The notes beneath the pieces were generated by a model. The model worked only from the letters and a program-made list of their open reading frames with translations, did not search any database and had not been told where the DNA came from. Both the position numbers and the translations under genes were made by a program. This document shows, piece by piece, positions 1,151 to 60,706 of a DNA stretch of 64,000 nt (its first letter is position 1; every line of letters starts with the position of its first letter). The DNA comes from Mesorhizobium sp. M2D.F.Ca.ET.226.01.1.1 (GTDB lineage Bacteria; Pseudomonadota; Alphaproteobacteria; Rhizobiales; Rhizobiaceae). The DNA lies in assembly GCF_004022705.2 (NCBI RefSeq), contig NZ_RZOY02000010.1, positions 248,001 through 312,000 on the forward strand. The letters are read 5' to 3'.

Positions 1151-4100
1151 TTGAGCGTTGGTTCTAAGACAGGCGCGCCGTCCGCCCCGAAGCGGTCGTC
1201 GAGCCACAAACCCCGCAGGGTGTGTGTCGTTTCCGAGGTCGAGTTCGGCTCGACGGTGACAGCCGATCCCGGATCGGCGACGTATGCGCTGGCCCAGCAT
1301 CTGGCGAAAATCGGCGAAACCGTCACGCTGTTGTGGGTGCCGAGCCCGGTCGGCAGCCAGCCCGATGAGCAGGAGATCGCCAGGCTCGCCAAATGGTGTT
1401 TTGACAATTTCCTGGTCCGGCTCGAACTGCTGCCGCCGTCGCCCGAATTGTTGCGTGGCCTGGAGTCCAGCGACAAGAATTCAGTCGCCGTCTACCACTT
1501 CCTCAAGCAGAACACCTTCGACGTCGTCTATTTCGCTCTCGAAGGCGGACTGGCGCATTTCCCGGCCGTTGCCAAGCGCACGGGCGTCTTTCCCGATCCT
1601 CCCATTCTCGTGGTGCTCGCGCATGAGCCGCTGATGTGGGATCTGGAGGCCAATGCCAAGGCGATCGAGCGCAAGGAGCAGATGACCGTCGCGCATATGG
1701 AACGGACCTCCGCCGAGACCTGCGACCACCTCGTCGTCACCGGCCAATCCTTGCTCGACTGGATGATCAAAGCGGGATGGAAGCTGTCGACCAGCCATCA
1801 AATCGCGACGCCGCTGGAGCCCGAAGAGTGGCGTTCGAATTTCACCGTCGATCACTACCGGCCTCGGCAACGGCCCGCTGCCGAATTGGTTCATTTCTCA
1901 GGCACGGAGACGCGAAGCGGGCTGACGCTGTTCTGCGACGCGCTCGATCGCCTGGCCGACAGCGGCGTGACCGATCTCGCCGTGACGATCGTCGGGGCGT
2001 TTGGTCATGTGCTCGGCGAGCATTCGGGCGGCATGGTCGTGCGGCGGGCCCGGCAGTGGCCGTTCAAACTGAAGCTCCTGCCGATCCGAGACGAGCCCGA
2101 AATCTTCCGCTATCTGCGGCAGAGCCACGCGCTGATAGCAATCACGCATTCAGCTGCGCAGCTTCCGCTGGACGTGGTGACGTGCCTAGACGAGGAAATC
2201 CCCTTCATCGCGACGGACGTCGGCAGTATACGTGAGCTGCTCCAGCCGAAATCCGCTGACGCGGTCATGATGCAGGCGTCCCCTTCCGCGATCGCCGCCA
2301 AGATCGCGTCGGTGCTGGAGAGCCAATCTTTCGGTCCGGCAAGGCCCTTGCAAGACCGGGAAGCGCGCGAGAAGAGCTGGACCAGATTGCACGTCAAATT
2401 GTGCCGGCAGCCCGCCAAGGCCGCTGGCCGCGGTCGAGCCCGGTTGCCGCTCGTTTCGATCATCACGGCCCACTACAATCGGGCGCGCCTGTTGCCGCAG
2501 GCGATCGCATCGGTCCGTCGCCAGGACTACCCCAATATCGAATTGATCGTCGTCGACGACGGCAGCACCGATCCGGACGCAATACGCCTGCTCGCTGAAG
2601 TCGAGCCTGAGTTCGAGCAGCGCGGCTGGCGGATCATCCGGCAAAAGAACGGCTTCCTCGGCAAGGCCCGAAACACCGGCATTCGCGCCGCCAAGGGATC
2701 CTTGATCCTGTTCCTGGACGACGACAACGCCCTCTTCCCCAACGCGGTCAGCACGTTCGTGGCCGGCATGCAAAAGTCCGGCGCTGATATCTGCACGACG
2801 TTTGCCAAGTGGCTCAATGAGCCCTTCGTGCCGCCGGACACCAAGAGCGGCTATATGCTCTACTTTCCGGTCGGCGGCCCGCCGGACATCGCGCTGATCA
2901 CCAACCCGTATGGCGACGCCAATGCGATGTTCCGGCGCGAGGTGTTCGACAAGGTGGGCTACCTCAACGAGGAGCGCGGCTTTTCGGCAAGCGATTGGGA
3001 GTTCTTCCTGCGCGCTGATCTGGCGGGCCTGGAGATCGTCACTGTCCCGGAACCGCTCTATTGGTATCGGTCTTCGCCGACAGGCATGAACCGGAATGCC
3101 GAGTGGCTGAGGAACCGCCGGCCGATCATCAATGTGTTCCGGAAGCACAAGTTCGCGCATACCGATATGTTCGTTCAGCTCGGCATCAGCTCGAACACCG
3201 CCAATCACGAGAAAGATCTCAACCTCTGGAACCTTGAGCTGCGCGCCAAGGACGAGCGGTATCTGCGGCTGAGCGCCGCTTCCGCCAACTCCGCTGACGC
3301 GATGCAATTGCTGGCGGAAATAGCGGCGCGCGAAGGCAGGGCAGATACAGCGATTTCGCTTCTGGCCCACGCAGGGCGGTCCGACTTCACGCTGGGCGTC
3401 GTCGAGATGCTCCATGCCGCCGCCGAGGAAACGGTGCCGGAACTGCATTCCTCGCTCTACAGGGAGCAGTATCTCCCGGTCGAAGCCCTGCGCCGCGCCC
3501 ATATCGGCTCGCATCCACATACCGATGCGGATCTGCTGAGCTATGTCGAGCAATCGCCGGATCAGCTGTTCGTGCAGGCCACAGGCAGCACCGTCTCGAT
3601 GGCATTGCTGAAAGGTGTCTGTCCGGCCGGCACGATCGGCTCGAGCTGCTGGGTCTATCTCGACGAGGCGCTGACGGGACCCGCGCAGTTTCAGATCGCG
3701 ATCGTCGACGCTGAAAACCAGACCTTTGATCAGCTCGCCCGGCTCCTCGAAGATGACGGAGGGAACGGTTGGGCCGATGTCAGCCGCCCCCATGAGCCAC
3801 GCGAGATCGCGACAAACGTCAATTCGCCCACGACCGGCAGGCGCGATTTGCTGCTTGCAGTCAGATGCGGCGGCAATTGGTCGGGCGCAACGGTGCTTGG
3901 CGGCTTTTCAAGCATCCAGATCCGCCATGTCGTCTTGAACGGCGCGAAGCACCCGCGCCTCAACGCGCCGCAGCAGCGGCAACGTACGCGCCAGCTGACC
4001 GGTGACGAGTTGAAGCGTTCAACGCTCGTGACGAACCATCCGACGGAATTGCCTGCGCTGCTCGTCTCCGATGGCGGCATCTTCCTGCGGCCGAGCACGC

Positions 4101-4447
4101 ATGGTCTCGTGGTGGCCGCGCTCAATTCCACCTTCCCGGCCTTTGCCAGGAGTGTCGTCGCTACGGTGGAGATCGCTCACGAGGAGGCGTCGCCGTTCGA
4201 GTTCGCCATGGCTCTGGGTCGGCCGGAAGAAAAGCTGGTCTGGAAACACGACGCTCCGGTCGGCGCTTTGGCGTTCTCCGGATGGACGCGCGTTTCGAGA
4301 CCATTCGAGTTGCATGATCTGAAACTTTCCATGCGCGAGGTGGATCGCAAATGGCTGACCATCTATCTGGCGATCCGGCTGCCGCGCGGTTCGAAACCGA
4401 TGCCGTCCAACGCCTTCTGGCGCAAATTGCTGCTCGTCTGGGACTGA
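1151..4447 (+). CDS. Large two-domain glycosyltransferase (GT4-like plus GT2)
   Basis: A 1098-residue protein that joins two glycosyltransferase modules. Residues about 20 to 400 resemble a GT-B enzyme with a glycogen-synthase-like N-terminal half (opening CVVSEVEFGSTVTADPG). Residues about 432 to 700 form a GT-A family 2 domain with VSIITAHYN, IELIVVDDGSTD and the metal-binding LFLDDDN near residue 521. The last 400 residues show no motif I recognise and could bind acceptor or partner. The start is TTG, supported by a strong GAGGGGG ribosome binding site 7 bases upstream. Together with the divergent glycosyltransferase it suggests synthesis of a surface polysaccharide or a glycosylated surface protein; the linkage cannot be told from sequence. 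Confidence 0.8.
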   Translation: MSVGSKTGAPSAPKRSSSHKPRRVCVVSEVEFGSTVTADPGSATYALAQHLAKIGETVTLLWVPSPVGSQPDEQEIARLAKWCFDNFLVRLELLPPSPELLRGLESSDKNSVAVYHFLKQNTFDVVYFALEGGLAHFPAVAKRTGVFPDPPILVVLAHEPLMWDLEANAKAIERKEQMTVAHMERTSAETCDHLVVTGQSLLDWMIKAGWKLSTSHQIATPLEPEEWRSNFTVDHYRPRQRPAAELVHFSGTETRSGLTLFCDALDRLADSGVTDLAVTIVGAFGHVLGEHSGGMVVRRARQWPFKLKLLPIRDEPEIFRYLRQSHALIAITHSAAQLPLDVVTCLDEEIPFIATDVGSIRELLQPKSADAVMMQASPSAIAAKIASVLESQSFGPARPLQDREAREKSWTRLHVKLCRQPAKAAGRGRARLPLVSIITAHYNRARLLPQAIASVRRQDYPNIELIVVDDGSTDPDAIRLLAEVEPEFEQRGWRIIRQKNGFLGKARNTGIRAAKGSLILFLDDDNALFPNAVSTFVAGMQKSGADICTTFAKWLNEPFVPPDTKSGYMLYFPVGGPPDIALITNPYGDANAMFRREVFDKVGYLNEERGFSASDWEFFLRADLAGLEIVTVPEPLYWYRSSPTGMNRNAEWLRNRRPIINVFRKHKFAHTDMFVQLGISSNTANHEKDLNLWNLELRAKDERYLRLSAASANSADAMQLLAEIAAREGRADTAISLLAHAGRSDFTLGVVEMLHAAAEETVPELHSSLYREQYLPVEALRRAHIGSHPHTDADLLSYVEQSPDQLFVQATGSTVSMALLKGVCPAGTIGSSCWVYLDEALTGPAQFQIAIVDAENQTFDQLARLLEDDGGNGWADVSRPHEPREIATNVNSPTTGRRDLLLAVRCGGNWSGATVLGGFSSIQIRHVVLNGAKHPRLNAPQQRQRTRQLTGDELKRSTLVTNHPTELPALLVSDGGIFLRPSTHGLVVAALNSTFPAFARSVVATVEIAHEEASPFEFAMALGRPEEKLVWKHDAPVGALAFSGWTRVSRPFELHDLKLSMREVDRKWLTIYLAIRLPRGSKPMPSNAFWRKLLLVWD

Positions 4448-5521: not shown

Positions 5522-6688
5522 ATGCCGGGGGCTGACGGAACCATCCTGATTACCGGGGCGCGCGCGCCGGTGGCACTGCATCTGGCACGCCTCCTCCATG
5601 GCGCCGGGCACAGGGTGATCCTGGCCGACACGCCGGCGCGGCCAATCGCGGCGGCGAGCAAGGCCGCAGCGCGCTACCACCGGCTGCCGCCGCCGCGCTT
5701 CGAACCGCAGGCTTATGCCGAGGCGGTGCAGACGCTGATACGGGCTGAAAGCATCAGCCTGGTCATCCCGACCTGCGAGGAAGTCTTTCATCTTGCGCTT
5801 GCCTGGCGCGGCAGGACCATGCCGGCGCTTTTGTTCGCACCCGATATCGAGTTGTTGGCGCAGGTCCACAACAAGCACAGCTTCATCCGGCTCGCCGAAC
5901 GGCTTGGGCTGGAGGTGCCAGAGACCACGCTTGTCAATTCCCGCGACGATCGGGAGGCGGTGCGTGGCCACTCGCGTGACCTGGTGCTCAAGCCGGTCTG
6001 GTCGCGCTTCGCCAATCATGTTCTGCTGCGTCCGGCACCAGATTTCCTTGATGCGATCGCGCCCTCGCCCGCCATGCCCTGGGTGGCGCAGCGTTTTGTC
6101 GAGGGCGAGGAGATCAGCGCCTATGCTGTGGCGCGCGAGGGCAGGCTCAAGGCGCTGGCGCTCTATCGTTCGCTCTATCGCGCCGGCAAGGGCGCCGGCA
6201 TCTTCTTCGAACGGGTCGAGGACGATGCGGCGCGCGCACTGGTCGAGCGCATCGTCGCCGGCACCGCATGGACCGGGCAGATTTCGTTCGACCTGATGCG
6301 CGAGACGGATGGACGCGTGCTGCCGCTCGAATGCAACCCGCGCGCGGTCAGCGGCCTGCATTTCTTCCGCGATCCGGCGCCGTTCGCGGATGCCGCGCTC
6401 GGCAGCGGTCCGGAAGTCGCGCCTGATCTCACCGCGCCGCAGACCGTGCGGCTTGCGATGTGGATTTATGGACTGCCGGCGGCGTTGCGTTCAGGCAGGC
6501 TCGCCAGTTTTCGAAAGGCAATGCGCGAGGGCCAGGAACTGCTCGATTGGCCGGGAGATTCAGCCCCGGTAAGGGCCCAATGGCCGGCGCTTGCGGAGAT
6601 TGCGCGCGTGGCATTGCGCGAACGCATCAGCCTGCAGGCGGCCTCGACGCGGGATATCGAGTGGAACGGGCCGGCAGATTGCCGTTGA
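5522..6688 (+). CDS. ATP-grasp domain ligase-like protein
   Basis: Predicted ATP-dependent carboxylate-amine or carboxylate-thiol ligase of 388 residues. An N-terminal Rossmann-like unit (TILITGARAPVALHLARLL) is followed by a central ATP-grasp fold (DLVLKPVWSRF near residue 155, VAQRFVEGEEISAYAV near residue 190) and the late metal-binding signature LPLECNPRAVSGLHFF near residue 273. The C-terminal 90 residues are unassigned. It is convergent with the six-gene operon ending at 6896, separated by a palindromic repeat element. The adjacency suggests, but does not prove, a role in the same pathway. The ATG at 5522 is the first in frame; no strong ribosome binding site is visible. The substrate is unknown. 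Confidence 0.75.
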   Translation: MPGADGTILITGARAPVALHLARLLHGAGHRVILADTPARPIAAASKAAARYHRLPPPRFEPQAYAEAVQTLIRAESISLVIPTCEEVFHLALAWRGRTMPALLFAPDIELLAQVHNKHSFIRLAERLGLEVPETTLVNSRDDREAVRGHSRDLVLKPVWSRFANHVLLRPAPDFLDAIAPSPAMPWVAQRFVEGEEISAYAVAREGRLKALALYRSLYRAGKGAGIFFERVEDDAARALVERIVAGTAWTGQISFDLMRETDGRVLPLECNPRAVSGLHFFRDPAPFADAALGSGPEVAPDLTAPQTVRLAMWIYGLPAALRSGRLASFRKAMREGQELLDWPGDSAPVRAQWPALAEIARVALRERISLQAASTRDIEWNGPADCR

Positions 6689-6702: not shown

Positions 6703-6861
6703 CACCCCCTCTGGCCTGCCGGCCATCTCCCCCGCAAGGGGAGAGATCAGCAGTTCCGCCGAAGGCGCCACTCCTGCAACGTTGATGATTGGCGAAAGCA
6801 GTCGCGACAGCCAATCTCCCCCCTTGCGGGGGAGATGGCCGGCAGGCCAGAGGGGGGTGTG
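6703..6861. repeat. RIME-like palindromic intergenic element
   Basis: Two inverted arms of about 45 bp (6703-6747 and 6813-6861) share GGGGGAGATGGCCGGCAGGC and its complement around a 65-bp centre. Each arm also has its own small palindrome (CTCCCCC/GGGGGAG, GCCGGC). The same arms recur at 51012-51178, 51736-51896 and 60547-60706. This matches the style of rhizobial intergenic mosaic elements; the name is by resemblance. It fills the gap between two convergent genes, where it could also end transcription. Confidence 0.75.
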
Positions 6862-6895: not shown

Positions 6896-7891
6896 CTACA
6901 GTTCAATCTCGTGCACCCTCGGCTCGCTCGCCGCCGCCGGCATTCTGCCTTCCATGATCGCGGCGATGTCGCGGCGCAGGAAATCGAGCGGGCCGATCAC
7001 AGGCACGGCCTGCGGGGCGAAACGGGCATTGTCGCTCGCCGATCTCAGCACGCGGCGGTCCTGATGCAGCGCCATGGCGAAGAGCGGCTTGAAAGCAAGC
7101 GCCTTCAGCTCGCCGAGCAGACCCTGGCGCCGGCCGATCAGCCAGCCCACGCCCTCGACGGTGCGCTCGTCGGCCTGGCGCAGATGGAAGGTGGTGGCTA
7201 ACACCAATCCCTCCTTGCCCCAATATTCGAGCTCCGCGATGCCGGGATGGCGGAAGCGGCCGATGGTTTTCGCGCGCTCGCCTTCCAGCAGCCGGCTGAT
7301 CAGGCCCTGCTGGCGGTCCTCGCCGGTGTAGCTCGCCTCGACCCAGCCCTCGCCTCCCGTCACCTCGACCCGCACCAGATGGCGTTTGAAGGTGAGGCCG
7401 CGCAGCAGGCCCTTATGGGTGAAATGTGTATGGGTGGCATCGAGGATGTTTTCCGCCGCATCGATCACCGTCGACTGGGTCGATGAACGCACCCGCCGCA
7501 CGATTATGTCCTTGCCCTGCATGCAGTGCAGGTAAGGTTCGCCCCGCGGCATGCCCGACGAGATGAAGACGACGCCGTCGCGCTCGATCGCGGCGTAGCG
7601 GCGGACCCGGAAATGCGGCATGGCGCCGACATGGCCGGGGATCGCCGTGCAGCGTCCCTGGCCGTCATAGCGCCAGCCATGATAAGGGCATTCGATCTCG
7701 CCGCCGACCACCTTGCCGGTCGACAGCTCGACCAGCCGGTGCGGGCAGCGGTCGAAAAGAGCGGCAACGCCTTGCGCCGAGCGGAACAGCACCACGGGCT
7801 CGCCTTCGAAGAGAATGCGCTTCGGTCGCCTGCCGATATCGGCGGACAGCGCCACCGCCTGCCAGTAGGCTTCGCCGCGGCGCTCACTCAC
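6896..7891 (-). CDS. Rieske non-heme iron oxygenase, alpha-subunit type
   Basis: Predicted mononuclear iron oxygenase of 331 residues. The Rieske cluster motif CPHR...CPYHGW is at residues about 49 to 71, and the catalytic iron site has the typical N-x2-D-x2-H-x4-H spacing in [14 protein letters not shown] near residue 148. The domain order fits the family that hydroxylates or desaturates hydrophobic ring or lipid substrates using electrons from a separate reductase; no reductase gene is nearby. Its ATG overlaps the stop of the upstream acyltransferase-like gene (ATGA), so it is translationally coupled as the last gene of the operon. The substrate is unknown; the operon suggests a lipid- or polyketide-like product. 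Confidence 0.9.
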
Positions 7892-9015
7892 AATTCGAAC
7901 CTCCTGAGCAGGGGAATGCCGACCCGCGCCAGCACGGTCTCCATGATGCGGATCGCCACGCGCCGGCGAAGCGGGAGATGCCCGGCATAGACGGCGTTGT
8001 ATTCTATCGCCGCGACCGCGCCGCGCCGGCGTTTGAAACCGGCGGCACCCGCGCTCATGTTGAAGAACAGGCCGCGCGCCGTGGCGTGATCCTGCGCCAT
8101 CGCCATCGCCATGCGATAGAGCCCGTCGGCGACCGGCAGGCCGGTGTCGTAGCCGACGATCGGCTGGGTCAGCGTGCAGCCGTTTTCGAACAGGCCGGTG
8201 ATGGCAACCAGCTCGCCGCCAGGCCGGCGCAGGCCCTCCAGGCTGATCATGCCGCGCCGATGCATCTCGGCGATGTAGCGGGCCGTGTAGTGCGGATTGA
8301 GCGGCGTGTATTTGTCGAGATAGAGCATTTTGTAGAGTTGCTCAGCGCGGGCGTAGTCGGCCTCGCCGAAATCGCCATTGCCGACCCGCTCGAAAGGCGC
8401 CGTGCGCAGGCGGGCGCGATCGCGTTTGATGTCGCGCGTCATCGCGGGCGCGGCGCTACGGTCGGCGAAGATGTAGATCTGGCGTGCCGCCAGCATGCGG
8501 AACCCCTCGGCCTTCAAGGCGGCAATCGTCGCCGGATCGGCGATGTTGTTCAGCGAGCGGATAACGATGGCGCGATCGGGGAAGCGCGCGGTCAGCACCG
8601 CGTGCAGCGACGCGACCGTCGGCCGGTCGAGCAGCGGTACCGGATTGGTCGAATAGAGCCAGTTGTTCACCTGCGCCTGACGGTCGAGGCCGCTTGCCCT
8701 CACCAGCGGCGCGCAGGCGCCGATCAGCGCCTTGAGCGCGCGCTTGAGCAGCGGATGGGCGGCGAAGTTGCGCGTCTCGTCGATCGCGTAGTCGATATAG
8801 GCGCTGGTCGGGCAGCAGATGTAGCAGTTGGGCGCATCATCGGCGTCGTTCAGCGTCAGCGGAAAAATGCGGCCGGAAAGTTCGAACGTCTCGACCTTCG
8901 TCTTCAGGTTGGCAATGAGATCGCGCACCGGCATCTCGTTGAAAAGCTTCACAAAAGCCTCGACCTTTGCCGGCCTGTTCTCGACCCGGTCGGCCTGCGG
9001 CGCAGGCCTTTCCAT
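7888..9015 (-). CDS. GNAT/FemAB-like acyltransferase (predicted)
   Basis: A 375-residue protein with weak similarity to the GNAT superfamily. The C-terminal half shows a plausible acyltransferase core ([14 protein letters not shown] near residue 270, then [18 protein letters not shown] near residue 320), a layout seen in N-acyltransferases that use acyl-CoA, acyl-ACP or aminoacyl donors. A Cys-rich stretch (NCYICCP) near residue 65 is unexplained. The ATG at 9015 was chosen because it lies 14 bp after the preceding stop; the longer open frame would run far into that gene. The 3' end overlaps the Rieske gene by 4 bp. It is probably the transfer or amide-forming step of the pathway. The family call is uncertain. 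Confidence 0.5.
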
Positions 9016-9029
9016 CGTCGCCGCGCCAC

Positions 9030-10286
9030 TCACCGCGCCTGCTCCAGGCGGCATTCGACGCGGCGCAGCTTGCGGCCTGTTTCCAGTGGCAGCGGCGCTC
9101 GGACGAGCGTTACGGTGGCGGCCGCCTTTCGTATGTCCAGGAGCGCGCGCACCGACTGATGAGCGGCGGCCGCCGCGTCGTCCGCGAGCGCCGGCGATAG
9201 TCTGAGCTCGATCCGGTCCGGTCCGGTCTGGACGAGGCGGAAATCGTCGATGCGGCGGTCGGCCTTGAGCACCGCGTTGCGCAGCACATCCGGCGTGACG
9301 AGGATCGGGCCGTTCCGCGAAGTGAGCCGGAAGACATCGTCCATGCGGCCGACGATTTCGTCGACGCAGCGCAGCGGCGACCCGCAGCCGCAAGGCTGCC
9401 CGGACAGGCGCAGCAGGTCGTTCATCCGATATCGCGCCATGATCTGCGTCCGGCGGCGAAAAGCCGTCACCAACGGCGTCACCAGCCCCTCGCCCGCCGG
9501 CTCGAATTCGAAGAAAACGGAGTCTTCCGCGAGATGCAGGCCGCCCTTCCGGCAGGTCACGGCGAACAGGCCTTCGGTCGCCATATAGATCTGGTCGAGC
9601 GGCAGCCTGAAGAAACTCTCGATGACCGGACGGTCGACCGGGTCGAGCGTCTCGGCGGCCGAGAAGACACGCTTCGGCCGGAGACGGAAGTTTTCGGCCG
9701 CAAGATGCCGGAGCATTTTTGGCGGCGCGATGATGACCGTCGGATCGAAGGCTTCGAGCGCGCCGCGCCAGCTTTCCGGTCCCAATGTCAGGTCGAAGAA
9801 GGCGAGCTTGATCAGGCGCGATTTGCGGGCGCTGTCGTAAAGCCCGGTGTTCTGCGGCAGGATGACGGCAACGCGCATGCCGCGCCAGACAAGATCGGGT
9901 GCCGCCTTGGCGAGGATTGTGCCCAGCCAGCGGTATTTCTCCGCTTCCGAAATCATGAACAGGCCGCGATTGCCAGAGGTGCCGGTGCTGGCGCCGACGG
10001 TGAGCGCGCCGGCGCGCCTGTCACGCGCCAGCGCCGCCCAGGCTTGCGCGGCGGTCAGGCCGTGGATGTTGAACTCGTCGAAGCGCGCCATCAGCAGCGC
10101 CTTGTCGGTGACCGGCAGGTCGGCGAGCCGGGCCGGTGCTCTGCCATAGAAAGGCGCACGCGGCAGGTCGCGGTCCAGGAAACGCCGCAGGGCGGCGGCC
10201 TGCCAGCGTTCGAAGCCGGTCCGGGTCTTGCGCGACAGCCAGCGCGTCAGGGCAAACGAGCCTGCCGCTTCGGCCAGACCGTTCAT
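9030..10286 (-). CDS. PaaK/F390-synthetase-like adenylate-forming enzyme
   Basis: A 418-residue member of the ANL superfamily, closest in motif layout to phenylacetate-CoA ligase and coenzyme F390 synthetase. Visible motifs are the phosphate loop [11 protein letters not shown] near residue 96, the adenine-site MATEGLF near residue 232, [10 protein letters not shown] near residue 285, and the Cys cluster CGCGSPLRC (possible zinc site) near residue 297. It would activate a carboxylic acid as an acyl-adenylate. The start ATG at 10286 overlaps the stop of the hydrolase gene (ATGA). In the OleABCD comparison it occupies the OleC position, although OleC belongs to a different ANL branch. The actual acyl substrate and final acceptor are unknown. 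Confidence 0.8.
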
Positions 10287-11107
10287 GCGGCCTCCGGCGC
10301 AAGATCGCGGGATGTCGGCGCGGGGTCGTGGCAGAGCATCACTTCGCCGCCGGAGGCAAGGAAGCGGCGCAGCATGGCGCTGGTCGGTTCGATCGCCGCC
10401 GCATCCTCGGCGATCAAGGTGGCCGGGAAACCTGGCGTGCGCTTCTCGGTCAAAGCAGTGAGCAACCATTGCACATCGACGGCGTAGAGCAGCGGCCGCT
10501 CGAGACCATTGAACAGCAGGCCGAACTGGCCGTCGGCATGTCCGGGAAGATCGACCGCGACTACGCTGCCATCGCCGAAGATATCCGTGCCGCCTGGCAT
10601 GTCGCCACGTGGCTCGATGCGCGGCTTGCCGGATAGTCCGTCGAGCCGCGACTCGAAGTCGGCGGGAAACAGCTCGGTGAAGACGCCGTGGCGCAGATTC
10701 TGGCGCGGCGTGCGCGCCTTGACCCGCGCCCAGGCGGCATCGTTGGCGATGAAGCGGGCGTTGCGGAACAGTGACAGGCCGGAGATGTGGTCGGCATGAA
10801 AATGCGTGACGACGACGTTGCGGATGTCGCTAGGCGACAGGCCGAAACGGCGCAGCAGCGGCAGAACCTGCTCGTCGGCATTGAGCTGAGGTTTCAGCAG
10901 CGCGCCGTAAAGCCGCAGCATCCGGCCGCGCCGTTCGCCGCTCAGCGCTTCCGGCGTGTAGCCCGTATCGATCAGAACCGGGCCGGCAACGGCGTGAAAG
11001 ATCAGCCCGTAGCGGACGCGCAGCCTGACGCTTTGCCAGCTCCCGCCGCGCAGGATCAGCCGCTCGGCGGCGCTTACCCAGGCACTGTTGGCGAAAACGA
11101 TCTTCAT
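10283..11107 (-). CDS. Metallo-beta-lactamase-fold hydrolase, lactonase-like
   Basis: A 274-residue MBL-fold enzyme with the dinuclear metal signature THFHADH near residue 102, a further His in DLPGHADG near residue 190, a bridging Asp in YAVDVQW near residue 214, and a late His in CHDP. This layout resembles AiiA/AttM-type N-acyl-homoserine lactonases and related lactone or thioester hydrolases. Its place inside a biosynthetic-looking operon (ATGA overlaps at both ends) argues for a pathway thioesterase or lactonase rather than stand-alone quorum quenching, but both remain open. No signal peptide is seen, so it is cytoplasmic. Confidence 0.85.
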   Translation of the reverse strand: MKIVFANSAWVSAAERLILRGGSWQSVRLRVRYGLIFHAVAGPVLIDTGYTPEALSGERRGRMLRLYGALLKPQLNADEQVLPLLRRFGLSPSDIRNVVVTHFHADHISGLSLFRNARFIANDAAWARVKARTPRQNLRHGVFTELFPADFESRLDGLSGKPRIEPRGDMPGGTDIFGDGSVVAVDLPGHADGQFGLLFNGLERPLLYAVDVQWLLTALTEKRTPGFPATLIAEDAAAIEPTSAMLRRFLASGGEVMLCHDPAPTSRDLAPEAA

Positions 11108-12087
11108 GGCCCGACGCCCCCGGAAAAGGTGCGGTCGAGTCCCTGTTCGAACGGAACTTTCGGCGCCCAGCCGAGCATTCGTTTCGCTTTGGAAAGATCG
11201 AGGCTTTGCGCATAGGCAAAGAGGCCGAGACCGTAGCGCGTGACCGGCGGCTCGGGGCGGCCGGGCAGCCGCAGCGCCACCGCTTCCATGAGGCCCGCCG
11301 CCAGCATCGCCGGCACGAGCGGCATCGGCCGCCAGCGCGCGTGCAAGCCGGCGCGCATGCAGGCCTCGTCGGCGATGCGGCGAACCGGCAGCACAACGCC
11401 GCCGGAAATGTTGAAGACCTGGCCCTCGGCCTCACCCGATGCCGCAAGCGCCGCCATCACCGCGTCGACGACATCGTCGACATGGGTGAGGTCGATGGCA
11501 GCGCGGCCATCGCGAAACAGCGGCAGCGGCCGGGTTCTTGCCGCCTTGATCAGGCGCGGCAGCAGCGCGCGATCGCCTTTGCCGTAGATGCCGCGCGGCC
11601 GCAGCACCACTGGATGGATGGCAGGCTGGCCAAGCACGATGTTCTCCGCCTCGCGCTTGGTGCGGGCATAGTGATTGACCGGTTCCGGCAAAGCCATGTC
11701 CTCGGTCAGGCCAAGCTGATCGCGGAAGGCAAAGCAGACAGATGGGCTGGAGATGTGGACGAAGCGGCTGACGCCCTGCCGCCTGGCGAACTCGACGAGG
11801 TTCCGCGTCGCCGTCACATTCGCCGCCTCGAAATCCGCGAGCCGGCCGAAGGGCGAAGAGAGCGCCGCGCAATGGATGATCCGTTCGACCCTGCCCAGCC
11901 TAGGGTCGAGCGCGGCGTCGAGCGGCTGCGCCAGATCATGGCGGATGATGCGATGACCGGCAGCTTCGAGCGCGGCGCAGCGTTCGTCGTCGCGGCCGAG
12001 CCCGAGCGCCAGCATGCCGGACGCGGCCAGCCGCTCGAGCACATGGGCGCCGAGGAAGCCGCTTGCGCCGGTTACGAGGACGGCCAT
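11104..12087 (-). CDS. OleD-like NAD(P)-dependent epimerase/dehydrogenase
   Basis: A 327-residue extended short-chain dehydrogenase. It has the cofactor loop VTGASGFLG at the N-terminus, the Ser-containing strand ISSPSV near residue 117, the catalytic YxxxK (YARTK) near residue 141, and LRPRGIYGKGD after it. Those strings and the C-terminal LGWAPKVPFEQGL match, as I recall it, the 3-beta-hydroxysteroid-dehydrogenase-like branch that includes OleD, which reduces 2-alkyl-3-ketoacids. A generic sugar epimerase is less likely because no sugar genes are in the operon. It begins 3 bp after the ketosynthase stop and overlaps the hydrolase by 4 bp. Confidence 0.8.
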   Translation of the reverse strand: MAVLVTGASGFLGAHVLERLAASGMLALGLGRDDERCAALEAAGHRIIRHDLAQPLDAALDPRLGRVERIIHCAALSSPFGRLADFEAANVTATRNLVEFARRQGVSRFVHISSPSVCFAFRDQLGLTEDMALPEPVNHYARTKREAENIVLGQPAIHPVVLRPRGIYGKGDRALLPRLIKAARTRPLPLFRDGRAAIDLTHVDDVVDAVMAALAASGEAEGQVFNISGGVVLPVRRIADEACMRAGLHARWRPMPLVPAMLAAGLMEAVALRLPGRPEPPVTRYGLGLFAYAQSLDLSKAKRMLGWAPKVPFEQGLDRTFSGGVGP

Positions 12088-12090
12088 CGA

Positions 12091-13080
12091 TTAGACCTCC
12101 AGCGCCATGCCGCCGAAGGAGACGCCGGCCGAGGTACCGAGGAAGAGCAGCTTCATGCCCGGCGCCACGCGGCCCTCACGGCGCGCGACGTCCAGCGCGA
12201 AGGGAATGGAGGCCGCGATCTGGTTGCCGAAGCGGGCGGAGATGTCGACGAGCTTTTGCGGCGCGAACCCGGTCTGGCGCGCCATATGCGCAAGCGCGAA
12301 CGGGCTCGCCTGATGCGGCACGACGAGATCGACGTCCTCCCGCCGCCAGCCGGCGCGCTCGAGCAGGATGTCGACGAAGCCGTTGAAGTGGCGCGAGGTG
12401 AGCCGGAACAATTCCTTGCCGTCCATGTGGAACAGGCTGTGCGCGGCGAACGCTTCCTGCTCCTTGCGGAAATCGAAGCGTGTGCCGCCTGAACCGATGC
12501 CGCAAGCTTCCCAGCCGGAGGGATAGGTACGCATCAGGCTAGCCGCCACCTTGCCCTCGCTTGGCTTGGCCTTGCGCAGCACGGCCGCCGCCGCGCCATC
12601 GCCGAAGAGCGCCGCGACCTCCGGCGCGTCCTGCCACGGCAAAGCGCGCGAGGCGACTTCGGACGAAAACACCAGCGCCGTCCCGCATTGCCCTGCCTCG
12701 ATCATGCGGCCGGCGGTCTCGAAGGCGGTGAGGAAGCCAAGACAGGTGCTGTTGACGTCGAAGGCGGCGGCCGAGCCGTCCGCCAGCCCCAGGCGCTGCA
12801 TGACCAGGGGCGCGCTCGCCGGCAACGGTTGGTAAGGCACGCCGCAGCCGCCGACGATCAGGTCGACGGTGCCTGGATCGAGGCCGGCGTCCTCAAGCGC
12901 AAGCGTGGCCGCGGCGCAAGCGAGATCGATTTGCGATTCGAGCTCGCAGACATAGCGCTCGGCGACGCCGGTGACGGTTTCCAGCGCGCCCTGGCCGAGG
13001 CCAAGCCGCTCTTCCAGCATCCGTGTGGTGAGGCGCTCAGCCGGTACCGCCCTGCCGGTTCCGACAATCCTGATCCGCAT
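12091..13080 (-). CDS. Beta-ketoacyl-ACP synthase III (FabH-like)
   Basis: A 329-residue thiolase-fold ketosynthase with a complete Cys-His-Asn triad: Cys in VNSTCLGFL near residue 103, His in VVPHQASPF near residue 239 and Asn in ARFGNQIAAS near residue 270. It would catalyse decarboxylative or non-decarboxylative Claisen condensation of acyl thioesters. It is first in the six-gene operon and distant from the housekeeping fab cluster at 28-32 kb, so a specialised substrate is inferred. The ATG at 13080 follows GGCGGGGGTAGA, a good ribosome binding site; an ATG 13 codons upstream at 13119 is an alternative. It could be an OleA analogue, but the sequence looks more like FabH. Confidence 0.88.
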   Translation of the reverse strand: MRIRIVGTGRAVPAERLTTRMLEERLGLGQGALETVTGVAERYVCELESQIDLACAAATLALEDAGLDPGTVDLIVGGCGVPYQPLPASAPLVMQRLGLADGSAAAFDVNSTCLGFLTAFETAGRMIEAGQCGTALVFSSEVASRALPWQDAPEVAALFGDGAAAAVLRKAKPSEGKVAASLMRTYPSGWEACGIGSGGTRFDFRKEQEAFAAHSLFHMDGKELFRLTSRHFNGFVDILLERAGWRREDVDLVVPHQASPFALAHMARQTGFAPQKLVDISARFGNQIAASIPFALDVARREGRVAPGMKLLFLGTSAGVSFGGMALEV

Positions 13081-13202
13081 TCTACCCCCGCCGCTTGAAT
13101 TGGTCTTCTTCCAACTCATAGATCGATGCTAGCAGTTCGTGGCGACATTCCGCCAACTATTGTTGGCGTTGATGTTTCCGGCGAGGCGAAGGGGATCCAC
13201 AC

Positions 13203-13625
13203 GTGCAGAACTCAATCAATCTTGCGTTGGTTTTGGTGTTCTGCGGCTGCACTTGCAGCTTTGCCAACGGCGATTTTCTAAGAGTCTCGGTCGACTGCCC
13301 AAAACCAGATGGCAACGGGATCCTCGTAGCCGTCGACGAAAACCCGAATGGCTACGAGTCGCGCATAACGACGTCCTATGTCGACGGACAAGTCGACAAG
13401 ATCGCCGTGGCCAATTCTGAGGACGGGTCGAACTTCAGAGACCAGTTTGTGCTTAGTCGTTCAACCAGTGCCGGAACGAAAGAGGCTCCGGCGTTCCGTG
13501 CCTTCGAAGATCGGGCCAACGAATTGCTCCGGTTCTTCTGCCTGGCCGAGCCCGCGGCCAAGCAGCGGTATCTCGACCTGCTGCAGGCAAATCGGGCGCT
13601 GCTTCATCAGCAGAAAGCGCCGTAA
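13203..13625 (+). CDS. Small secreted protein of unknown function
   Basis: A 140-residue protein that starts at GTG after a GAAGGGGA ribosome binding site. The N-terminus (NLALVLVFCGCTCSFA) looks like a signal peptide, with FCGC a possible but imperfect lipobox. The mature chain has three further cysteines or fewer and no motif I recognise. It is divergent from the ketosynthase operon and convergent with holC, so it is likely an independent gene. Confidence 0.5.
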   Translation: MQNSINLALVLVFCGCTCSFANGDFLRVSVDCPKPDGNGILVAVDENPNGYESRITTSYVDGQVDKIAVANSEDGSNFRDQFVLSRSTSAGTKEAPAFRAFEDRANELLRFFCLAEPAAKQRYLDLLQANRALLHQQKAP

Positions 13626-13655
13626 GAGCCACCTCAAACTGCAGGGCACTGATGC

Positions 13656-14105
13656 TCAGGCCTTGCGCTCCCAGCGCCGATCCGGCGTCTGCTGCCAGTA
13701 GGTTACGGCGTGGCCGGCTTCCTTCATCGTCTTCCAATGGCCGCGCGCGGCTTCGAGCTGTGCCGAGTCATGGCCGTCGAACAGGAAGACGGCGCGTTCG
13801 TAGCCGGAAAGCTCCGGTGGCGTCGCGCCGTCGACAAGGAAGCGTATCTGCGCGGCGTTCTGGTTGCCCTCGCCCGTGGTGAGCAGGATCGGCTGCTCGG
13901 CCGGATAGGCCTCACGGTCGGTTGCATGCGCCAGGAAGGAATCGTCACGGAAAATCCACAGATGCTGGTCGAGCGCGTCGCGGCGCTCTTCCGTGCCGGT
14001 CTGCACCACCGCGCGCCAGCCGCGCTCGATACTGCGCTCGAGCAGGCCGGGCAGCGCCTCCTCGAGCGTCGATTCGGTCAGGTGGTAGAACAGGATGTCG
14101 GCCAT
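13656..14105 (-). CDS. holC: DNA polymerase III chi subunit
   Basis: A 149-residue protein matching HolC from start to end: the opening MADILFYHLTESTLEEALP, ERGWRAVVQTG, RRDALDQHLW with FRDDSFLAH, and the late AVTYWQQ. Chi, with psi, links the clamp loader to single-stranded DNA-binding protein at the replication fork. It starts 7 bp after the pepA stop, so the two form an operon, an order common in alphaproteobacteria. Confidence 0.92.
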   Translation of the reverse strand: MADILFYHLTESTLEEALPGLLERSIERGWRAVVQTGTEERRDALDQHLWIFRDDSFLAHATDREAYPAEQPILLTTGEGNQNAAQIRFLVDGATPPELSGYERAVFLFDGHDSAQLEAARGHWKTMKEAGHAVTYWQQTPDRRWERKA

Positions 14106-51011: not shown

Positions 51012-51178
51012 TAATCTCCCCCCTTGAGGGGGAGATGGCCGCGAAGCGGCCAGAAGGGGGTCGTTTCGCATAGAACGCCGAGGCCCCCTCTCGTCATACG
51101 AAAGCGTTGGCGCTTCACGCGCAGCGCCCCCCTCTGTCGCCTTCGGCGACATCTCCCCCTCAAGAGGGGAGATCAGTT
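51012..51178. repeat. RIME-like palindromic element, second copy
   Basis: Arms 51012-51062 (CTTGAGGGGGAGATGGCCGC) and 51125-51178 are inverted complements in their outer 20 bp; each contains a local palindrome (GCCGCGAAGCGGC, CGCCTTCGGCG). It sits between two genes whose 3' ends face it and overlaps the osmC-like stop codon. Confidence 0.75.
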
Positions 51179-51735: not shown

Positions 51736-51896
51736 GCGCCCCCCTCTGTCCTGCCGGACATCTCCCCCACTTGGGGGGAGATTGGCAGCTTCTCCGGCGG
51801 CGCCCTTTCGTCAACGTCGGAGATTGGCGAAGGCCGACGCGACATCTGATCTCCCCCCTCGTGGGGGAGATGGCCGGCAGGCCAGAGGGGGGCGCG
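51736..51896. repeat. RIME-like palindromic element, third copy
   Basis: Arms 51736-51784 and 51851-51896 are inverted complements with GGGGGAGATGGCCGGCAGGC in the right arm. It fills the divergent gap between the osmC-like gene and the carboxypeptidase, so it lies upstream of both genes. Confidence 0.75.
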
Positions 51897-60546: not shown

Positions 60547-60706
60547 CAATCTCCCCCCTTGTGGGGGAGATGGCCGCGAAGCGGCCAGAGGGGGTCTTAG
60601 CGCGTAGAACGCCGACGCCATTGCGCGCCGCGAGCGGCGTTGGCGCTCCACGCGCAGCGACCCCCTCTGTCGCCTTCGGCGACATCTCCCCCTCAAGGGG
60701 AGATTA
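60547..60706. repeat. RIME-like palindromic element, fourth copy
   Basis: Arms 60547-60597 and 60657-60706 are inverted complements, with the same GGGGGAGATGGCCGC core and local palindromes (GCCGCGAAGCGGC, CGCCTTCGGCG) as 51012-51178. It lies between two convergent genes. Confidence 0.75.

Follow-up and report, generated by a model that had tools for sequence, protein, structure and literature searches.

Among the closest described systems to the one considered here are the OleABCD and OleACD pathways of long-chain olefin and beta-lactone biosynthesis, where one unit encodes a thiolase-fold ketosynthase and an OleD-like reductase together with adenylating and hydrolytic enzymes. OleC belongs to the AMP-binding family PF00501, and OleB is an alpha/beta hydrolase. 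The same four roles are combined in a seven-gene unit of Mesorhizobium sp. M2D.F.Ca.ET.226.01.1.1, which lies within the 64,000 nucleotides analysed here (NCBI RefSeq assembly GCF_004022705.2, contig NZ_RZOY02000010.1, positions 248,001 to 312,000 of the forward strand; hereafter the window, with positions counted from its first letter). However, this unit differs from the Ole pathways in several respects: its ketosynthase (KS) lacks the Glu117-Pro of OleA; its adenylating enzyme (ADE) is by score a PaaK/TIGR02304 protein, not a PF00501 one; its hydrolase has the metallo-beta-lactamase (MBL) fold of PF00753, unlike OleB; and, beside these and the reductase (RED), three tailoring genes are added, encoding a GNAT-like transferase (GNAT), a Rieske oxygenase (RIE) and an ATP-grasp ligase (GRASP). 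The closest solved relatives of the KS by profile, MxnB and CorB, come from the myxopyronin and corallopyronin systems; the residue ahead of the proline is small and hydrophobic in both cases (V, L or I), but the partners there are entirely different, and the window unit contains no polyketide synthase. A third counterpart, an operon between narI and purU of Escherichia coli, keeps the core of four genes, arranged as in the window, but has another tailoring module, and no GNAT, Rieske or ATP-grasp gene is annotated in the 12.9 kb inspected there.

The core, KS-RED-MBL-ADE, is seen with varying partners in Alpha-, Beta- and Gammaproteobacteria and in Bacillota. Its neighbourhood was scanned in 96 loci (L051-L130 of the locus list, seven further genome regions and nine plasmid regions), counting partners that lay within 7 kb of ADE; L035 and L036 (from the window's genus, with all seven genes), L040 (a distant ADE match without the core), L134 (MBL and ADE only) and L195 (a second E. 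coli copy) were left out of this count. All four core genes are present in 92 of the 96 loci, and the four without the core (L053, L096, L110 and L127) also stop at a nearby contig end. Most often the core is accompanied by GNAT and GRASP, with or without RIE (n = 66); GRASP and RIE occur with it three times, GRASP alone once, and GNAT without GRASP twice (once with RIE), both of these loci being cut by a contig end. Elsewhere the partner is a sulfotransferase (n = 7), a set of PAP2, FA_hydroxylase and desaturase genes (n = 4) or a DUF3419 gene (n = 4, one with GNAT and one with RIE, FA_hydroxylase and PAP2). DUF3419 is a family that we take to include the betaine-lipid enzyme BtaA. Pfam searches on ten examples confirmed the sulfotransferase, DUF3419, PAP2, hydroxylase and desaturase calls. 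An original prediction, made from the window sequence before any database search, had treated six of the genes as one pathway set; the set is conserved, but only four genes form the core, and the exchangeable nature of the rest had been missed.

Two of the loci deserve separate mention. In Halocynthiibacter namhaensis (L104), where the core lies at 7203-11245, the core and its downstream region combine the four genes with DUF3419, Rieske, FA_hydroxylase and PAP2 relatives, a mixed head module. In a gammaproteobacterial genome (L031, 2944-4312 and 4687-5883), the core adjoins genes that were read by eye as LuxI/LuxR-type and pectinesterase genes, presumably as in soft-rot enterobacteria.

The layout of the window is itself widely repeated. 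A profile scan of genome contigs with ADE gave at least 580 confirmed stretches; among the best 80, from named genomes, all seven families are present in 58 loci, the core four without the other three in 10 and other partial sets in 12, while the exact order and strands of the window recur in 52. The closest ADE matches in this best 80 come from records named Mesorhizobium (76-91% identity; 50% in one metagenome-assembled genome (MAG) of that name), and the hosts include Mesorhizobium, Shinella, Roseibium, Stappia, Ruegeria, Loktanella, Falsigemmobacter, Sphingosinithalassobacter and Hyphomonadaceae. One locus, L101, is labelled as a Flavobacteriaceae MAG, which may be a binning error. The genes are conserved together far outside the genus, and the main objection that the original prediction had raised against itself, a lack of such conservation, falls away.

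Within broader taxa the presence of the unit is patchy. At order level, 8 of 297 genomes have a match at E 1e-30; five of these matches exceed 400 bits, and three of the five belong to the window's genus. Among 289 genomes of the class, GNAT occurs in the window genome and in a single further one. Across the phylum, TIGR02304 gave 60 of 398 matches at E 0.001, only 7 over the family cut-off; regions were followed up in ten genomes, nine of those listed (not counting the window genome) and one with a weaker match. Among plasmids, 55 records have an ADE match, of which 10 were inspected.

GRASP, which lies on the opposite strand from the other six genes (Table 1), is part of the same unit, because GRASP, ADE and GNAT occur in the same genomes of the genus. 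Among 61 genus genomes, GNAT and ADE are each found in 25 and GRASP in 26; the three lists share an identical 25 genomes, and the extra GRASP match is a fragment of 65 residues (genome G400, C1:1507051-1507245) in a genome without ADE or GNAT matches, which suggests loss of the unit there. The gene orders agree with this membership. GRASP and RIE are convergent in the window, with 207 bp from the end of GRASP to the RIE stop, and of 20 loci outside Mesorhizobium that are arranged in this way, 16 have overlapping stops (4-31 bp). In more distant genomes GRASP is found within the operon, as in L037-L039 (KS-RED-MBL-ADE-GRASP-RIE), on a Paenibacillus plasmid (KS-GRASP-RED-MBL-ADE-GNAT) and on a Paraburkholderia plasmid (KS-RED-MBL-ADE-GRASP-GNAT, followed by a Rieske-like frame without annotation). 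Thus the six-gene operon originally described stands as far as its six genes go and lacked a seventh member.

Table 1. Features of the unit and its surroundings, by position in the window
Feature	Description	Position	Strand or placement	Remark
KS	Ketosynthase III of MxnB/CorB-like type	12091-13080	-	ATG at 13080
RED	NAD(P)-dependent reductase, OleD-like	11104-12087	-	NF042422, 174.4 bits
MBL	Metallo-beta-lactamase-fold hydrolase, lactonase-like	10283-11107	-	Lactamase_B (PF00753), metal-site residues
ADE	PaaK-type adenylate-forming enzyme	9030-10286	-	TIGR02304, F390-synthetase-related, above cut-off
GNAT	Double-GNAT transferase, FemX/MprF-like predicted fold	7888-9033	-	Start GTG 9033 or ATG 9015
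RIE	Rieske non-haem iron oxygenase	6896-7891	-	Rieske and VanA_C, CxH/CxxH cluster, iron site
GRASP	ATP-grasp carboxylate-amine ligase, PRK06849 relative	5522-6688	+	Convergent, seventh unit member
Inverted-repeat element	50-nt arms	6705-6856	Between convergent RIE and GRASP ends	Insertion-like, outside pathway

The E. coli version is an operon of seven genes (KS, reductase, MBL, F390-related enzyme, PAP2, a sterol-desaturase-family protein and an acyl-CoA desaturase) that sits between narI and the tyrT/purU region. At least 80% of its 6.9 kb is held by 671 of 5426 complete E. coli genomes (about one in eight, ~12%), and 671 of the 673 places found are on chromosomes. None of the seven genes has a gene name in the RefSeq record of E. 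coli UPEC 26-1 (L195, 3001-9882).

In the window unit, the residues expected of working enzymes are intact. The KS retains Cys113, His256 and Asn286, its catalytic residues, in 8/8 aligned rows. In the MBL, His102, His104, Asp106, His107, His190, Asp211 and His260 are invariant in 9/9 rows, leaving the dinuclear metal motif complete. The ADE scores 272.3 bits with TIGR02304, the F390-synthetase-related family (cut-off 251.9), has PaaK-type ligases as its nearest solved relatives, and conserves across its alignment an ATEG motif, a GR..D motif and Lys406, which we take to be adenylation motifs. In the Rieske protein, Cys49, His51, Cys68, His71, Asp151, His154 and Asp278 are invariant in 21 rows and His159 nearly so; both the CxH...CxxH cluster and the 2-His-1-carboxylate iron site (Asp151-His154-His159/Asp278) are complete. 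GRASP (predicted model with a predicted local distance difference test score (pLDDT) of 92.4) shares with PRK06849, PylC and L-amino acid ligases a complete ATP-grasp fold, with Z 20.0-23.8 over 283-329 residues among the 50 structural matches listed, the nearest (Z 20.9-23.8) being PurK, PurD, PylC and L-amino acid ligase; its Mg-binding Asp257, Glu270 and Asn272 are invariant in the alignment. Its score with PRK06849 is 328 bits, below the 406-bit cut-off. The families first assigned from the sequence held under profile search: ketosynthase III, an Epimerase closest to OleD, Lactamase_B, TIGR02304, and Rieske with VanA_C.

The simplest reading of this conserved set of enzymes is that the seven genes form one unit making an acyl core with an amino-acid-type head group, perhaps within a family of amphiphilic lipids; the probability of this reading is tentatively put at 0.42. 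We infer the substrates, the order of the steps and the lipid nature of the product as follows. The ADE would adenylate a carboxylic acid, which may be a fatty acid or else the core acid once complete. Acyl thioesters drawn from fatty acid metabolism would be condensed by the MxnB-like KS, the OleD-like RED would convert the resulting 3-oxo group to a 3-hydroxyl, and the lactonase-like MBL would open a lactone or release a thioester, giving a hydroxylated acyl core. GRASP may then link the carboxyl of the core, or that of an amino acid, to an amine, while the FemX/MprF-type GNAT may add an amino acid from aminoacyl-tRNA to a hydroxyl or amine of the core, and RIE would oxidise the product. Because other bacteria pair the same core with a sulfotransferase, with DUF3419, or with PAP2, hydroxylase and desaturase genes, the core appears to be a chassis with interchangeable polar groups. 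Sulfotransferases, aminoacyl transferases and ATP-grasp enzymes, and DUF3419 if the BtaA link holds, target hydroxyl, amine or carboxyl groups, which fits the groups that such a core would offer.

In its broadest form, this proposal would make the core the source of an undescribed class of bacterial lipid backbone whose head groups are swapped by neighbouring genes. Rhizobia and roseobacters would attach tRNA-derived amino acids and a residue linked by the ATP-grasp enzyme, whereas Ruegeria, Phaeobacter, Paracoccus and Ketogulonicigenium would attach sulfate and other bacteria an aminocarboxypropyl group; E. coli and a second family of gammaproteobacteria would make a form that is desaturated and hydroxylated. 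Such a modular family, spanning Proteobacteria and Bacillota and including ~12% of complete E. coli genomes, is a doubtful extension, less probable than the reading of the window unit itself.

Several points weigh against the lipid reading. No recognisable carrier protein or exporter is found among the four flanking window genes scanned, other loci not having been searched. Five of the 92 core loci are without any partner of the kinds sought. The core is also not absolute, because the plasmid of Pseudomonas sp. Leaf58 (L134, 6115-8239) carries MBL and ADE with no KS or reductase annotated beside them. The layout counts lean to near relatives, since the 80 loci are those most like the window ADE. 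For the KS, the window protein alone scores 160.0 bits with a FabH and 158.8 with MxnB, and its tree carries a warning of long branches for MxnB and OleA. For GNAT, comparison with DUF2156 (PF09924) proteins of the genus gave an hhalign probability of 7.6, from a shallow alignment of 11 proteins, and a predicted fold alone would not fix the donor.

As a side observation, the L134 pair adjoins uncharacterised genes and is a possible offshoot of the system.

The main rival, itself rather unlikely, is a small diffusible signal or antibiotic: the KS would fuse two acyl chains, and the product would cyclise to a pyrone, butenolide or lactone, be decorated with an amino acid and be secreted. Part of its support comes from the KS, whose likeness to MxnB counts for the lipid reading too. 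The KS profile scores 278 bits with MxnB and 270 with CorB; the best FabH reaches 238, and the entries that we take to be OleA 109. A quick tree of 41 rows was made with IQ-TREE, the MxnB/CorB type being represented by MxnB only; in it, the KSs of the system and MxnB fall on one side, apart from FabH and OleA, with a Shimodaira-Hasegawa-like approximate likelihood ratio (SH-aLRT) of 95. A FabH identity was rejected by this tree and by the cut-off of the FabH family TIGR00747 (175.3 bits against 292.1). A KS that joins two acyl chains in the manner of MxnB and CorB is possible, and these nearest characterised relatives make alpha-pyrones, according to the excerpts of PMC4578411. The closeness of the MBL to N-acylhomoserine lactonases and 4-pyridoxolactonase, its nearest solved relatives, would also suit a signal (its score with the AttM N-acylhomoserine lactonase family NF045700 is 63.8 bits, below the cut-off of 390), as would the patchy presence of the unit in genus and order and the LuxI/LuxR-type genes read by eye at L031. 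On the other side, no transporter or receptor is recognised among the four flanking window genes scanned, and the desaturase, FA_hydroxylase, PAP2 and DUF3419 partners belong to families of membrane-lipid metabolism.

The next alternative concerns GNAT, which may be an ordinary N-acyltransferase using acyl-CoA or acyl carrier protein thioesters, so that the product would be an N-acyl amino-acid lipid of the ornithine-lipid type. Public records do annotate the protein as a GNAT N-acetyltransferase, and its two-domain GNAT fold is common to N-myristoyltransferase and mycothiol synthase, at Z 10-11. Sequence searches, made with 7888-9030 as query and the start codon excluded, gave no Pfam match even at E 10, and the profile found nothing below E 0.0095 among PDB sequences, all rows being short and unrelated. 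The predicted model (pLDDT 89.7) has its best structural matches, over about 235-270 residues, in the streptothricin synthases Sba18/Sbb17 (Z 16.4), FemX (16.2) and MprF-type chains (12.1-14.8), all of them aminoacyl-tRNA-dependent transferases, against 11.3 at most for N-myristoyltransferases. Among the top 23 structural rows (Z 12.1-16.4), 22 are FemABX, MprF/PGS-type or Sba18/Sbb17 proteins, and the other, 2hqy, is without known function. Identity to these proteins is only 8-15%, with no detectable sequence homology to DUF2156 in the shallow profile comparison, so that the relation to FemX and MprF is seen in the predicted fold only. In GNATs, the motif [QR]xxGx[GA] in the beta4-alpha loop is the signature of CoA binding. 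It is absent from that loop in 28/28 GNAT rows, and the pattern occurs elsewhere in the sequence in 9/28. The predicted fold therefore supports the 'GNAT/FemAB-like' label first given to this protein, while, given that fold and the lack of the CoA loop motif, aminoacyl transfer appears more likely than the acylation originally proposed for it. This makes the N-acyltransferase alternative improbable beside the FemX/MprF-type transfer preferred here.

An Ole-like pathway, the idea from which the analysis set out, is quite improbable. Here two fatty acyl-CoAs would be condensed and reduced, the ADE would form a beta-lactone, and the MBL would open or decarboxylate it, giving an olefin or a beta-lactone. 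The four roles do correspond, the hydrolase is lactonase-like, and a two-chain type of KS is possible. The reductase also has OleD as its best NCBIfam family, at a score far below the cut-off of 580 bits, so that the OleD likeness first claimed for it holds by best match and not by family threshold. The remaining evidence is against the pathway. OleA-type enzymes use a catalytic Glu before Pro (Glu117 in XcOleA), as described in the excerpts of PMC7064751, which also report two OleA proteins without it, and PpyS uses a Glu at that position according to those of PMC4578411. At this position, the KSs of the system have Leu or Ile in 31/31 (Leu in the window), MxnB has Val, and five FabH-like rows have Phe or Leu, whereas Glu is present in 4/4 control KSs near OleD-family hits, of which two are over the OleD family cut-off. 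The Leu is not diagnostic alone; the absence of Glu is what counts. An OleA identity was rejected on the lack of Glu-Pro in 31/31, and the comparison with OleA and FabH proposed at the outset groups the KS with the head-to-head condensing MxnB rather than with FabH, without making it OleA-type. The ADE scores 12.9 bits with the AMP-binding family PF00501 (E 0.049), below its cut-off of 29.9 bits, and family searches found no relative of OleB or OleC in the unit. By score or motif, none of the four Ole features (OleA Glu-Pro, OleD cut-off, OleC family, OleB family) is present. The Ole-like logic ascribed to the first four genes is thus matched in the best family of the reductase and possibly in the type of condensation, and lost in the identities of the KS, ligase and hydrolase.

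Trees of the reductase differ on its place relative to OleD. With FastTree, four other short-chain dehydrogenases/reductases (SDRs) of the window genome are set apart from the system and OleD rows together (support 0.95), and OleD falls inside the spread of the system RED rows. The IQ-TREE quick tree scatters those long-branched SDRs and gathers seven OleD-type rows, of which two exceed the family cut-off, into a separate group (SH-aLRT 95). In constraint tests, neither a single system clade (approximately unbiased (AU) test, p 0.66) nor system and OleD-type rows against the SDRs (AU p 0.71) was rejected, and the tree in which system and OleD-type rows are held together is better by 12.8 log units. 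The FastTree analysis leaves out the SDR row L174, which gave no open frame. Two further OleD-like reductases, L164 and L166, score 164 and 182 bits with the window RED, against 88-132 for the seven OleD-type rows; they come from a gammaproteobacterial or related family, and no KS-like frame was found in the surrounding 15 kb. In L038 (7681-8690) the reductase is split into two frames of 94 and 238 amino acids, from a decayed gene or an assembly error.

Finally, it is hardly credible that the operon serves catabolism or detoxification, degrading an aromatic or acyl compound by adenylation, reduction, hydrolysis and Rieske oxygenation. Catabolic pathways do often include PaaK-type ligases and Rieske oxygenases, and the nearest solved relatives of RIE are DdmC (dicamba O-demethylase) and SxtT/SxtDIOX, but enzymes such as a ketosynthase, an ATP-grasp ligase or a FemX-like transferase form bonds, and the partner swaps with sulfotransferase, DUF3419 and desaturases indicate synthesis.

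The finer structure of the locus is that of tightly coupled genes. All six minus-strand open reading frames lie where first described. The KS and RED are separated by 3 bp, RED/MBL and MBL/ADE are joined by ATGA overlaps, and ADE/GNAT is either a GTGA overlap or a 14 bp gap, depending on the GNAT start; these joints agree with the ATGA overlaps and 3 and 14 bp gaps of the original prediction, but the GNAT/RIE joint is GTGA, the start codon of RIE being GTG. An in-frame ATG at 13119 also lies upstream of the KS start and is less likely by alignment than that at 13080. Third-codon-position G+C is 0.77-0.85 across all seven genes, as in real genes here. A search of 13000-13700 for promoter-like sites of the E. 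coli type found none. The inverted repeat between RIE and GRASP has a core motif with 7 matches in the window, two of them in the repeat and the others at 51012-51034, 51153-51175, 51762-51784, 51847-51869 and 60547-60569, against 0 in shuffles; the repeat has the look of a short insertion element that belongs to the genus and was inserted later. Elsewhere in the window, 1151-4447 encodes a large glycosyltransferase with GT4-like and GT2 domains and a DUF6212 C-terminus.

No description of this gene set or of its product was found in the open-access literature, judged by titles and the beginnings of abstracts among the papers listed and with subscription journals lying outside the search, which agrees with the earlier statement that none was known; in excerpts of some of the open-access papers that name it, 'F390 synthetase' receives only passing mention. 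Mesorhizobium is easy to grow and to delete genes from, so comparative mass spectrometry offers a direct test. If the lipid reading is true, these genes would belong to an overlooked family of bacterial acyl metabolites, although they are present in Mesorhizobium, in roseobacters, in some of the Bacillota and in 671 of the 5426 complete E. coli genomes. TIGR02304, a curated family whose name reflects nothing more than a resemblance to F390 synthetase, would gain a pathway, and FemX/MprF-type chemistry would be extended to a new kind of substrate. The unit would also represent a natural experiment, in which one core has been combined with several head-group modules.

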